A stretch of 24,517 bases of DNA from a virus. Numbering within the stretch: position 1 is the stretch's first letter; each line of letters starts with the position of its first letter. Shown here piece after piece: positions 9,261 through 24,504 of the stretch. The stretch is from positions 1-24,517 of the IMG/VR virus record IMGVR_UViG_3300042296_000219; one strand, given 5' to 3'. A program made the position numbers and the translations under genes. The notes under the pieces are model-generated. The model was given only the letters and a program-made list of their open reading frames with translations. It ran no database searches and had not been told where the DNA came from.

Positions 9261-9730
9261 TGGACGTAACTCAATACCAGTTCACCGTACCCAACCCGCG
9301 CAACATGCGCGGCAGGGTCGATGCGCTCCAGAAGACCATTTCCAAGTTCGAGCAATACGAGCCTGAGACGACACACACGTTCCACGGCGGGATGTACTGC
9401 CGTGAGGTCCGCAGCGCTCAAGGCGCTCTGATCGTCGGCAAGGTCCACAAGCAAGAGCATTTCTTCATGCTGCTGTCGGGGTCCATTATGGTAACCGAAG
9501 GCGATGACGCTACACTCCTAACGGCTCCGTGTATCTTGAGCAGCAAGCCGGGGACAAAGCGGGCCATCTTCATGGTTGAGCCGTCCGTTTTCGTTACGGT
9601 TCACCGCACGGATACCACTACGGTTGAAGACGCAGAAAACGAATTGGTAGAATTTGATCCAGATGCTATGTTTGACGTTGGGAACATAGCAAAACCGCAA
9701 GATGTTGAGGCGATCTCATGGCGTTCATAG
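9260..9730 (+). CDS. cupin-fold (RmlC-like) protein in virion module
   Basis: The protein has 156 residues and starts at GTG 9260. The core (about residues 63-115) reads as a double-stranded beta-helix: GKVHKQEHFFMLLSGSIMVT is cupin motif 1-like with two His, and PGTKRAIFMVEPSVFVTVH is a motif 2-like strand pair ending in His. Cupins bind a metal or small ligand and serve as enzymes or as structural domains. Here the gene lies between a tail protein and the ejection genes, overlapping the next gene by 13 bases, so a structural or particle-associated role is more likely than metabolism. The acidic C-terminal tail (NELVEFDPDAMFDVG) may be a binding peptide. The fold is moderately sure, the function unknown. 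Confidence 0.6.
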   Translation: MDVTQYQFTVPNPRNMRGRVDALQKTISKFEQYEPETTHTFHGGMYCREVRSAQGALIVGKVHKQEHFFMLLSGSIMVTEGDDATLLTAPCILSSKPGTKRAIFMVEPSVFVTVHRTDTTTVEDAENELVEFDPDAMFDVGNIAKPQDVEAISWRS

Positions 9731-10407
9731 CTGCCGCTTTTATCAGTGGGGCCGCATCAATAGCGAGTGGCCTAATGGGCGCGTCGGCGGCTAGCAAAGC
9801 TGCTAAGGCACAAACGCAAGCCGCCGCGCAGGCTTCCGCGCTCGAACGCGAAATGTTCGACAAGCAGGTCGAATTGCAAGCCCCGTTTCGTGAAGCGGGC
9901 CTTACCGCCCAGAATCGGTTGCTGCAATACCTTGGTTTGTCGGGATCGCCTAGCGACGCAGGCTACGGCAAATATGCTGGCGACTTCTCTATGAATGATT
10001 TCACGACAGACCCCGGCTATGCCTTCCGGCTGGCCGAAGGCAACAAGGCACTGGACCGTACAGCCGCTGCTCGCGGTGGATTGCTCTCTGGCGGCGCTAT
10101 GAAGGCTGCGCAGCGCTACGGTCAGGAGATGGGTAGCCAAGAGTACATGAACGCATTTAACCGCTACCAGACCAACCGCGCTAACCAACTCAACCCGCTT
10201 CAGAGCCTAATGGGTGCGGGGCAGACGGGGGCTAACATACTTACGCAAGCCGCAGGAAGTCTTGGTCAATCATTAGGTGAAAATGCTATTGGCGCGGGCA
10301 ATGCTCGTGCGTCGGGGTATATTGGACAGGCCAATGCCCTAACAGGTGCATTGAACCAAGGTATGAACAATTATATGGGTATGCAGTATATAAAGCGTAT
10401 GCAGTGA
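9718..10407 (+). CDS. internal virion / DNA ejection protein (gp7-like position)
   Basis: The protein has 229 residues. The N-terminal 25 residues are hydrophobic and Ala/Gly-rich (MAFIAAAFISGAASIASGLM) and could enter a membrane, followed by a helical Gln/Ala region with ALEREMFDKQVELQAPFREA, then FTTDPGYAFRLAEGNKALDR and AAARGGLLSGGAMKA. This PGYxFRLxEG...RGGxxSGxxxK pattern is typical of phage proteins annotated as DNA transfer or ejection proteins. The Gly/Asn/Gln-rich tail fits an internal capsid protein released with the DNA. It is the first of three consecutive genes that match the P22 gp7-gp20-gp16 ejection block in position. It overlaps the cupin gene by 13 bases. Confidence 0.72.
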   Translation: MAFIAAAFISGAASIASGLMGASAASKAAKAQTQAAAQASALEREMFDKQVELQAPFREAGLTAQNRLLQYLGLSGSPSDAGYGKYAGDFSMNDFTTDPGYAFRLAEGNKALDRTAAARGGLLSGGAMKAAQRYGQEMGSQEYMNAFNRYQTNRANQLNPLQSLMGAGQTGANILTQAAGSLGQSLGENAIGAGNARASGYIGQANALTGALNQGMNNYMGMQYIKRMQ

Positions 10408-10432
10408 CCTACTGTTGAATAAGGACGGTAAG

Positions 10433-11689
10433 ATGCCTATTGATCCTAGCATTGCCCTTAGCTTTAAGCCCTCGGTTGCGCTTGCGGACCCGATGGAAAT
10501 GTATGCAAATTATCAAAAAATGCAATCCAACGCTTTGGCTATGCAACATGCGCGGAACGAAAACGCGCTGGCACAGCGCACCGCGCAAGAAGATGCGGTC
10601 TATAATTCACTCCAAGAACGCTATGGAAATACGATAGGTGAACCTGATCCAGAGCGTTTATATAGTGCTATGCGGCAGCACGGTTTGGCCCATAGAATAC
10701 CAGGCACACAAAAAGAAATCCAAGAAGCCGAAAACAGGTCTCTAACTAACGAGAAACTTTTTAACGCCAACGTAAGCTCCGCGATGGACAATGCGCGGTT
10801 CCGGTTGGAGGGTGTGCGGACGCCTGAACAACTCATGCAGTGGACTGAACAGAATCATAACGATCCAACGCTACGAAAATATTTCGACCGCATCGGCGTT
10901 ACAATCGAACAATCCCGTGCTCAGATTGCCGCAGTAGCAAACGACCCCGCTGCATTTGCAGACCTTCGTCAAAAAGCACAACTTGGGCTAAAGAACGCTC
11001 AAGCCGCAGTAAATGCCCAAGCCAACATCGAAATCCAACGTGAATATCAACGCATGAAAGGCGGTGGTGGTGGCGCACGTCCGGCTGCTTTGGGCGGTGG
11101 CGGTAGCGGTGGCGCACGTCCGGCTGCTTCGGGCGGTGGCGGTGGCGGTGGCGCACGTCCGACTGCTTCGGGCAAGCCCTTAACCGCAAATGAGCAATCC
11201 GCAGTCTACAATATAGGCCGCGTACTAATGGCCGCTAAAGCAATTAAAAGCGCAACCGGTCGATCACCCAAAGCGGATGCCCCCTCGGCGGTTGAGGCTG
11301 CTGTTGGGGCGCTTCCATTTACCAAAAACGCAGTAAATTTTACGCGGGGGGCAGATCGTCAAATTGTAGCCGCCGCGCAGCGCGACATGCTAGACGGGCT
11401 ATTGTACCTAGCCACGGGTGCGGCGTACAACAAAGAACAGCTTGCGGGTCAATATGAATCTTACATCCCGACTTTTTCGGATAGTCCGGAAGCACGGGCA
11501 TCTAAAAGAGAGCGCTTGATACAACTTGTTAATCTTGGCAAAGTTCGCGCTGGAAAGGCTTGGACACCAGAATTAGAAAAAACGCTTAACGATCTGTTTG
11601 GTGTAAAGACGGGCGCTGTACCCACAGCAGCGCCTGCGCCGTCAGCGGGCGACGTGATTCGGTACGACGCAAGCGGGAAAAGGATGTGA
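10433..11689 (+). CDS. second internal virion / ejection protein with Gly-rich repeat linker
   Basis: The protein has 418 residues. I choose ATG 10433 over a TTG six codons upstream because AAGGA at 10421-10425 is well spaced for it. Residues 10-205 are mostly helical and Gln/Ala/Arg-rich (MYANYQKMQSNALAMQHARN). Residues about 211-247 are a Gly-rich linker of three 13-residue units (GGARPAAxGGGGx). Residues 250-400 form a second helical domain (AVYNIGRVLMAAKAIKSATG) containing TGAAYNKEQLAGQYESYIPT, and the C-terminus VIRYDASGKRM is short and polar. No catalytic motif is seen. Central position between two ejection-type genes and the helical, Gln/Ala-rich composition support an internal virion role. 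Confidence 0.68.
   Translation: MPIDPSIALSFKPSVALADPMEMYANYQKMQSNALAMQHARNENALAQRTAQEDAVYNSLQERYGNTIGEPDPERLYSAMRQHGLAHRIPGTQKEIQEAENRSLTNEKLFNANVSSAMDNARFRLEGVRTPEQLMQWTEQNHNDPTLRKYFDRIGVTIEQSRAQIAAVANDPAAFADLRQKAQLGLKNAQAAVNAQANIEIQREYQRMKGGGGGARPAALGGGGSGGARPAASGGGGGGGARPTASGKPLTANEQSAVYNIGRVLMAAKAIKSATGRSPKADAPSAVEAAVGALPFTKNAVNFTRGADRQIVAAAQRDMLDGLLYLATGAAYNKEQLAGQYESYIPTFSDSPEARASKRERLIQLVNLGKVRAGKAWTPELEKTLNDLFGVKTGAVPTAAPAPSAGDVIRYDASGKRM
11069..11174 (+). repeat. 39-bp tandem repeat within an ejection gene
   Basis: There are two full units (11069-11107, 11108-11146) and a partial third (11147-11174), each opening GGTGGCGCACGTCCG. The unit encodes a 13-residue GGARPxASGGGGx linker. 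Unit length is a multiple of three, so copy-number change would lengthen the linker without breaking the frame. Confidence 0.85.
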
Positions 11690-23202: not shown

Positions 23203-23236
23203 CCCCCGCTGGATGTTTCCGGCGGGGGCTTTTTTA
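23203..23236. terminator. strong intrinsic terminator between convergent operons, probably bidirectional
   Basis: CCCCCGCTGG (23203-23212) pairs with CCGGCGGGGG (23219-23228, one T-G wobble) around the loop ATGTTT, followed on the + strand by CTTTTTTA. On the - strand the same stem is followed by TTTAGTTTA, a weaker T tract. It lies 27 bases after the primase-helicase stop and about 40 bases beyond the - strand stop, so it can end both operons. Confidence 0.9.
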
Positions 23237-23270
23237 TTTTGTATCTATTTAATTTGATTACCTAGGCGGT

Positions 23271-24038
23271 TTAGTTCTCGGTTGCTGGCCCGTATCTTCC
23301 AGTTTGGCATTGGTGATTTACCCATTCGATAATGACGTTTTTGCTATACCTAGCACACGCAGCCATAGTCGCCACGCGACATAATCCAATTGCAAATTCA
23401 GCAACTAGCGTGTCCGGTTGGTAGTCAGTGCGAATAGAGCATGACGCGACCTCACGCCATTTTCCGCCGTAACATGCCTCTATATCAAGAGTACTCAATG
23501 CATAGTGTGGCACCCTTTCGCTTGGCACAATCCGAGTTTCTAAACCTGTGAAACGCGCAATTTCATTAACGACTGATGGCATGAGCTTGGCGCGGTAGTC
23601 GTTCGAACTGTCTGCGCGGTAGATGCACTGAAATTCCTGTTGCCAGAACTCATTAAACCGAAGTTTAGCTGCGCTGGCACCATCATTCGTTTCGCGCCGG
23701 AAGCTTTTACCTGCCTGCCAGACACATAGTGGAAGCTTGCCGCCAATCTGCTTTGCCCAAGCATAACTTGACGGCGTAGTCTCCGCACGCAAGCATAAAG
23801 GCCCGCCCCCGGCATGGTGATTGGTCACAAACAAGTCGTCATCGCTATAGGCTGCACTAATCTGGGTTCGTGGCGACAGACATGGCCCCTCGACGCGGAT
23901 GATCCGCCATGCCGCGTTAGTGTCCAGCAATTCGCGGCGCATGACCGCAGCTAATCGGGCTTGAAAGGCATCACGCAATTCAATCTCGTTTTCGGTCCAA
24001 AACCGCAAGCCGCCAATGGTATATAGAGCTTCGCTCAT
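23271..24038 (-). CDS. standalone class II aminoacyl-tRNA synthetase-like catalytic core
   Basis: The protein has 255 residues. ATG 24038 is chosen because AGGAGAG (24047-24053) precedes it. An in-frame start 26 codons earlier would run into the upstream gene. Residues 15-55 resemble the motif 1 region. GPLCLRAETTPSSYAWAKQI (about 76-95) is like the Leu-Arg-x-Glu-Thr segment of class IIa enzymes. Motif 2 is GKSFRRETN then LRFNEFWQQEFQ, and motif 3 is LVAEFAIGLCRVATM with the GLxR arginine. KWREVASCSIRTDYQ resembles the GlyRS substrate segment. The protein ends just after motif 3, so the anticodon-binding domain is absent. It may activate an amino acid for a target other than normal tRNA charging. 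The fold is well supported, the substrate unknown. Confidence 0.8.
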   Translation of the reverse strand: MSEALYTIGGLRFWTENEIELRDAFQARLAAVMRRELLDTNAAWRIIRVEGPCLSPRTQISAAYSDDDLFVTNHHAGGGPLCLRAETTPSSYAWAKQIGGKLPLCVWQAGKSFRRETNDGASAAKLRFNEFWQQEFQCIYRADSSNDYRAKLMPSVVNEIARFTGLETRIVPSERVPHYALSTLDIEACYGGKWREVASCSIRTDYQPDTLVAEFAIGLCRVATMAACARYSKNVIIEWVNHQCQTGRYGPATEN

Positions 24039-24039
24039 T

Positions 24040-24504
24040 TTAGATGCTCTCCTGTTTAATAATGGCCTGCTCGTCGGCGAAGCCGAACATAGGCAGAAAA
24101 ACGAATGGCTGGCCACGCTCGCGTAGCAGGTCCGCCCCTAGAATTTCCCATGCGGCGTACCATGAGGCGTACCATGCGGCGTCTGCTGCGGCGTCCCCTG
24201 CGGCGTCCCGTACGGCGGCCCATGCGGCGTACCATTCGGCGTCCCGTGCGGCGTACCATGCGGCGTCTGCTGCGGCGTACCCTGCGGCGTCTGCTGCGGC
24301 GTCTGCTGCGGCGTCTGCTGCGGCGTCTGATGCGGCGTCTGCTGCGGCGTCTGATGCGGCGTCTGCTGCGGCGTCTGCTGCGGCGTCTGATGCGGCGTCT
24401 GATGCGGCGGAGACCGCAAGCCAGTCGGCCTCGGTCATCTGTTTCAGATGCTCAAGGAAGGCATCTAGGATGTGGCCATTGGGGCCATATTGGTGGTTAG
24501 TCAT
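24040..24504 (-). CDS. Ala/Asp-rich tetrapeptide-repeat protein, unknown
   Basis: The protein has 154 residues, with AGGAGA eight bases before ATG 24504. Residues 1-33 are ordinary sequence (NHQYGPNGHILDAFLEHLKQ, then MTEADWLAVSA), residues 34-117 are tandem DAAx tetrapeptides, and residues 118-154 are ordinary again (ILGADLLRERGQPFVFLPMF). The first repeat half is nearly uniform (DAAA, DAAS), while the second has Trp/Tyr (AAWYAA). Such sequence should form a long Ala helix with an acidic stripe and an aromatic-rich end. The family is not assigned. The gene lies one base upstream of the synthetase-like gene and shares its operon. Flanking non-repeat ends and a good ribosome binding site support a real protein. 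Confidence 0.7.
   Translation of the reverse strand: MTNHQYGPNGHILDAFLEHLKQMTEADWLAVSAASDAASDAAADAAADAASDAAADAASDAAADAAADAAADAAGYAAADAAWYAARDAEWYAAWAAVRDAAGDAAADAAWYASWYAAWEILGADLLRERGQPFVFLPMFGFADEQAIIKQESI
24152..24403. repeat. 12-bp tandem repeat array (about 21 units)
   Basis: There are 21 contiguous 12-base units with consensus GCGGCGTCTGCT on the + strand, plus a degenerate unit at 24404-24415. Units at 24284-24403 are almost identical, differing mainly at CT/AT in the last positions. Units at 24152-24283 are more diverged (GCGGCGTACCAT, GCGGCGTCCCGT). The unit is a multiple of three, so expansion or loss keeps the coding frame. Because it lacks stops in several frames it produces spurious open frames on both strands. 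Confidence 0.95.

Follow-up and report, generated by a model that had tools for sequence, protein, structure and literature searches.

What does a conserved stand-alone core that appears to activate glycine charge, and how is its acceptor chosen? Aminoacyl-tRNA synthetases commonly pick their tRNA through an anticodon-binding domain. The question is raised by a 255-amino-acid open reading frame on the minus strand of the window (the whole stretch of viral DNA analyzed, 24,517 nucleotides), where it runs from an ATG at 24038 to a stop codon at 23273-23271. Its family ranges from small podoviruses through phages of 300 to 600 kb to Rhizobium chromosomes. The answer bears on phage takeover of translation and on new roles of truncated synthetases, and a glycine-activating core of about 230 amino acids would lend itself to modeling minimal or ancestral synthetases.

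Gene and genomic context

The synthetase gene is carried by a phage, represented by a P22-like, 24.5-kb IMG/VR fragment. Other genes in the window encode a P22 coat protein, PolA, a DUF5906 primase-like protein, SNF2, and a PD-(D/E)XK nuclease; neither a terminase nor a tRNA gene was identified in the fragment. Two more small-phage contigs (L022 and L024) carry the window's replication genes together with the synthetase. The gene and the features upstream of it are as follows.

23271-24038, minus strand: gene for the bare GlyRS-type class II synthetase core, 255 amino acids (open reading frame, profile, and structure evidence)
24048-24053, minus strand: Shine-Dalgarno sequence AGGAGA, 9 nt before the synthetase ATG (from the sequence)
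24040-24504, minus strand: gene for an Ala/Asp/Trp-rich repeat protein, upstream of the synthetase, with its stop 1 nt before the synthetase ATG

The repeat protein and synthetase genes probably form one transcription unit. The repeat protein partially matched PHROG 8332 (unknown function) and had no Pfam match, and a role for it as functional partner of the synthetase is unsupported. Between the convergent primase and synthetase genes, a GC-rich hairpin followed by a T run (23203-23240) reads as a plus-strand terminator.

The protein is a GlyRS-type class II core

The window protein matched Pfam tRNA-synt_2b (33.4 bits against a cutoff of 29.3) and gave a partial GlyRS match in NCBIfam (E = 4e-10). 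It scored far below the curated GlyRS cutoffs (39.1 versus 312 for NF003211 and 21.5 versus 243 for TIGR00389), and all 67 aligned family members matched the NF003211 GlyRS model. Compared with the PDB, the family profile hit alpha2 GlyRS structures (E = 3e-14) far above SerRS, PylRS, and HisRS. The earlier note had proposed an intact class II core, and a structure check bore this out: AlphaFold2, given the 67-row alignment, returned a class II core (pLDDT 93, pTM 0.87), and a Foldseek search with this model placed alpha2 GlyRS at the top (E = 3e-14), with the mycobacterial enzyme ranked first. Searches of the synthetase against PHROGs and against the PADLOC defense system models gave no significant match and no match, respectively. 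The window protein is a truncated aminoacyl-tRNA synthetase core of the GlyRS type. It was not filed as a GlyRS because it lacks the insertion domain, the anticodon-binding domain, and the conserved Cys/His zinc set.

About 34 amino acids follow motif 3, forming one helical tail (helix 219-246 in the model) before the protein ends. Since nothing but this tail lies past motif 3, there is no anticodon-binding domain, as had been claimed from the first reading of the sequence; specifically, a C-terminal HGPT anticodon-binding domain was absent from both the sequence and the AlphaFold2 model. No insert of the size of the GlyRS insertion domain was found, as judged by strand order and length in the model and by the alignment. 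As for zinc ligands, no Cys or His is invariant across the 67 rows; the only candidates are C105 and C138, each partly conserved.

Residues of the glycine and ATP site are conserved

The residues that hold glycyl-adenylate have been named in a structure paper on Mycobacterium tuberculosis (Mtb) GlyRS (PMC12208437). Thirteen Mtb GlyRS active-site positions map onto the window protein, and 12 of them keep the GlyRS residue, at 99 to 100% of the 67 rows (E86, E135, E214, Q133, R114, A216, F131, E116, E196, R203, Y179, and R221). These residues lie in five segments.

23775-23792, minus strand: LRAETT (residues 83-88), with E86 = Mtb Glu165, glycine amino group (alignment and conservation)
23616-23705, minus strand: motif 2 (residues 112-141; alignment and conservation)
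23478-23510, minus strand: lid segment PHYALSTLDIE (residues 177-187), with Y179 = Mtb Tyr264 (alignment and conservation)
23424-23456, minus strand: REVASCSIRTD (residues 195-205; alignment and conservation)
23367-23405, minus strand: motif 3 (residues 212-224; conservation, register set by eye)

Motif 2 (SFRRE...LRFNEFWQQEFQ at residues 112-137) and motif 3 (EFAIGLCR at 214-221) are present as first quoted, and a conservation check found the arginines of both in 67 of 67 aligned homologues. In motif 2, R114, E116, F131, Q133, and E135 correspond to Mtb R197, E199, F212, Q214, and E216; in REVASCSIRTD, E196 corresponds to Mtb Glu284 (ribose/metal) and R203 to Arg291; in motif 3, E214, A216, and R221 correspond to Glu324, Ala326, and Arg331, a mapping that rests on the spacing E-x-A-x-G-x-x-R, identical to that of GlyRS. 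Mapped in this way from the Mtb enzyme, E86, E135, and E214 contact the amino group of glycine, R114 and Q133 contact its carbonyl, A216 is the gate blocking a side chain, and F131 and R221 form the adenine sandwich. At the 13th position, the buried Glu218 of GlyRS is replaced in the family by an invariant Gln (Q137), so the glycine pocket is not identical to that of GlyRS.

The one exception to conservation was E86 in L091, a cyanobacterial MAG contig with a phage-type copy that reads like a local frameshift near LRAETT; this copy is probably phage sequence in the bin. Loci were collected by the patterns LRxETT or FxQxEFQ, which biases the set toward those residues, but a match to either pattern sufficed for a locus, and selection did not involve the remaining residues. 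An independent set of phages, detected by plain tblastn with no motif patterns, keeps the same invariant residues.

The GlyRS-like substrate site suggested by the earlier note was sharpened by these data to the GlyRS glycine pit specifically, and on that ground the substrate is most likely glycine. Glycine activation is well supported by the predicted pocket, and the site appears to operate in the manner of GlyRS.

Two noncanonical roles were considered. One is that of a noncatalytic regulator or scaffold, as with HisZ or the accessory subunit of POLG2: the architecture of a bare class II core is similar to that of HisZ, and 17 family members gave weak matches to hisZ models. However, all catalytic residues are invariant, unlike those of degenerate paralogues, which makes such a role highly improbable. 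GlyRS makes Ap4A, and a core with a complete ATP site might likewise signal by producing Ap4A or a similar dinucleotide via glycyl-adenylate chemistry, or act by depleting ATP or glycine. Strict conservation of the glycine site would be needless if glycine were dispensable, and nothing in the gene neighborhoods points to signaling, which we regard as very unlikely.

The family is widespread and under selection

More than 100 homologues were found in phages and bacteria, mostly in jumbo phages. Viral contigs scanned with a single sequence yielded no relatives, whereas an alignment query found 90 in IMG/VR (80 kept) and 74 in bacterial genome contigs, mostly of Rhizobium, Devosia, Phenylobacterium, and Mesorhizobium. 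The 19 annotated phage records found by tblastn all come from phages of 311 to 636 kb, and their existing annotation is mostly hypothetical or a vague synthetase. Strong sequence constraint over the phage and bacterial homologues agrees with the initial view that the gene is not a decaying fragment.

In the tree, drawn with its root at the midpoint, the alphaproteobacterial chromosomal copies form a single clade (100/96) that falls within the phage sequences, a placement suggesting that some soil bacteria took the gene from phages into their chromosomes. Of 60 Rhizobium species genomes sampled, 27 carry the gene, about 20 bacterial loci share one chromosomal site, and the Rhizobium copies are, by their substitution pattern, under purifying selection (dN/dS about 0.09). 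One homologue (L084:9992-10663) runs through two in-frame stop codons, the first of them TGA, which suggests opal recoding or decay.

tRNA genes lie near the synthetase more often than expected

Among 24 phage records, 10 had a tRNA gene no more than 1 kb from the synthetase (1.49 expected; P = 2e-7), and 12 had one no more than 2 kb away (2.4 expected). These 24 are the partly nonindependent records outside the CUA clade described below, and the count omits several genomes with very many tRNAs. Gene position thus statistically favors a tRNA-related role. No tRNA gene lies nearby in the window fragment, in several relatives, or in the bacterial copies, so positional evidence is absent for half of the family; moreover, because translation genes cluster in jumbo phages generally, proximity need not mean that tRNA is the acceptor.

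Clustering of the neighbors of 75 loci found no conserved partner gene. Only the syntenic CUA clade has common neighbors, and one apparent cluster was discarded as antisense open reading frames. Among the neighboring genes are one for RtcB and one for a bare AlaRS core. Two huge phages (L006:10884-11630 and L051:10901-11623) carry the AlaRS-type core (Pfam tRNA-synt_2c), a second bare class II core, directly downstream of the glycine one. In the CUA clade, as well as in L023 and L036, a CysRS gene (in L004, at 9579-10949) lies about 6 kb or less from the bare core.

Activated glycine might instead be passed to a protein, a carrier, a small molecule, or a modified tRNA base. Known stand-alone cores (GluQRS, EpmA, and the amino acid:[carrier protein] ligases) do such jobs (PMC9437257), and the gene occurs without a nearby tRNA in small phages and on bacterial chromosomes. 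On the other hand, no conserved acceptor gene was seen in the neighborhoods, no zinc ligands are conserved, the excess of nearby tRNA genes is significant, and no phosphopantetheine-binding domain was found among the 25 of 29 families listed for 83 neighbor proteins. The non-tRNA targets put forward in the earlier note have lost ground on these counts, and an acceptor other than the tRNA 3′ end is possible but doubtful.

An amber tRNA accompanies the synthetase in one clade

In nine loci of one jumbo-phage clade (L004, L032, L033, L034, L042, L044, L045, L048, and L049), an isolated CUA tRNA with G73 lies 53 to 1,875 bp upstream of the synthetase; no other tRNA was located in the roughly 10 kb flanking the synthetase in each direction, or up to the contig end. 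In jumbo phages the synthetase might therefore be the cognate enzyme of a phage amber suppressor tRNA, placing glycine or a relative at UAG. The pairing, however, is limited to this largely syntenic clade, in which UAG is still used as a stop and wholesale UAG recoding was not seen. Wider scans of the clade's records found other tRNAs elsewhere, including a second CUA tRNA in Phosso, and L057, which lies beside the clade in the tree, has no nearby tRNA. A dedicated CUA tRNA, as in a pyrrolysyl-type pair, is present in this clade alone, with none in the window, and the window and bacterial copies would be left unexplained. In the gene-bearing bacteria, a loose CUA tRNA pattern gave two matches that were not tRNA-like and were no commoner than in the control. 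Service to an amber tRNA is distinctly unlikely to be what the enzyme does in jumbo phages.

As a general function, CUA tRNA charging was rejected: the synthetase profile matched 11 of the 50 records with the CUA tRNA pattern (10 strongly), many phages that lack the synthetase have this type of tRNA too, and most synthetase carriers lack a CUA tRNA of this form. For AP-J-162, another jumbo phage of Sinorhizobium, a CUA tRNA had already been reported (PMC11242549). The pairing is a clade-specific lead.

Proposed function

Our preferred reading, to which we assign a probability of roughly 0.55, takes the protein to be a glycine-specific class II enzyme that is catalytically competent, consists of the GlyRS catalytic core, and glycylates tRNA via the acceptor region. 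The core would form glycyl-adenylate and hand the glycine to a tRNA recognized by its acceptor region alone, since no part is left to read the anticodon. Transfer to tRNA, without anticodon reading, is the most likely second step in view of where the gene lies and of the site's descent from GlyRS. Glycylated tRNA would be kept available during infection independently of the host enzyme: in jumbo phages the core would work on the phage's own tRNAs, and in small ones like that of the window on the host's; alphaproteobacterial chromosomes would have captured the core from phages and then kept the gene. A bolder version, in which phage-born minimal glycine:tRNA ligases ignore the anticodon, one clade is paired with an amber tRNA and rewrites host UAG, and alphaproteobacteria captured the gene, is unlikely to hold in full.

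Comparison with known systems

Searches of the open-licence literature turned up no account of a family of GlyRS-type bare cores in phages; the family is widespread and apparently undescribed. Its best viral structural match in BFVD, A0A6J5M2P2, is a 222-amino-acid class II core of an uncultured Caudovirales phage, similar in size to the window protein (30% identity) and annotated merely as a class II domain. Viral proteins of 185 to 217 amino acids with a class II fold were also matched at low identity (A0A141HRQ2, A0A2I7SAH4, A0A292GIB7, and K7QJG2 of phAPEC8), hinting at further bare-core families in phages. The full-length synthetase genes of huge phages (Al-Shayeb 2020, PMC7162821) are likewise phage encoded and near tRNA genes, but they were recovered with full-length TIGRFAM models, and the bare-core family falls far below such cutoffs.

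Stand-alone truncated cores such as GluQRS and the amino acid:[carrier protein] ligases use other acceptors (PMC9437257). GluQRS (YadB), a truncated GluRS core, also stands alone, lacks an anticodon-binding domain, and works on tRNA; it differs in being class I and glutamate specific and in glutamylating queuosine in the anticodon. The amino acid:[carrier protein] ligases are also stand-alone class II cores and activate glycine or alanine, but they are SerRS related and Zn dependent, with a Cys/Glu/Cys Zn-binding site that has no counterpart in the phage family, and they have a carrier protein partner, of which none was seen here. In comparison with alpha2 GlyRS (M. tuberculosis, PDB 8t5n/8u2q; TIGR00389, NF003211), the phage core is without the anticodon-binding and insertion domains and carries an invariant Gln in place of Glu218, while the two have in common the class II core, the triple-Glu glycine pit, the Arg, Glu, Phe, and Gln of motif 2, the E-x-A-x-G-x-x-R of motif 3, and the lid Tyr.
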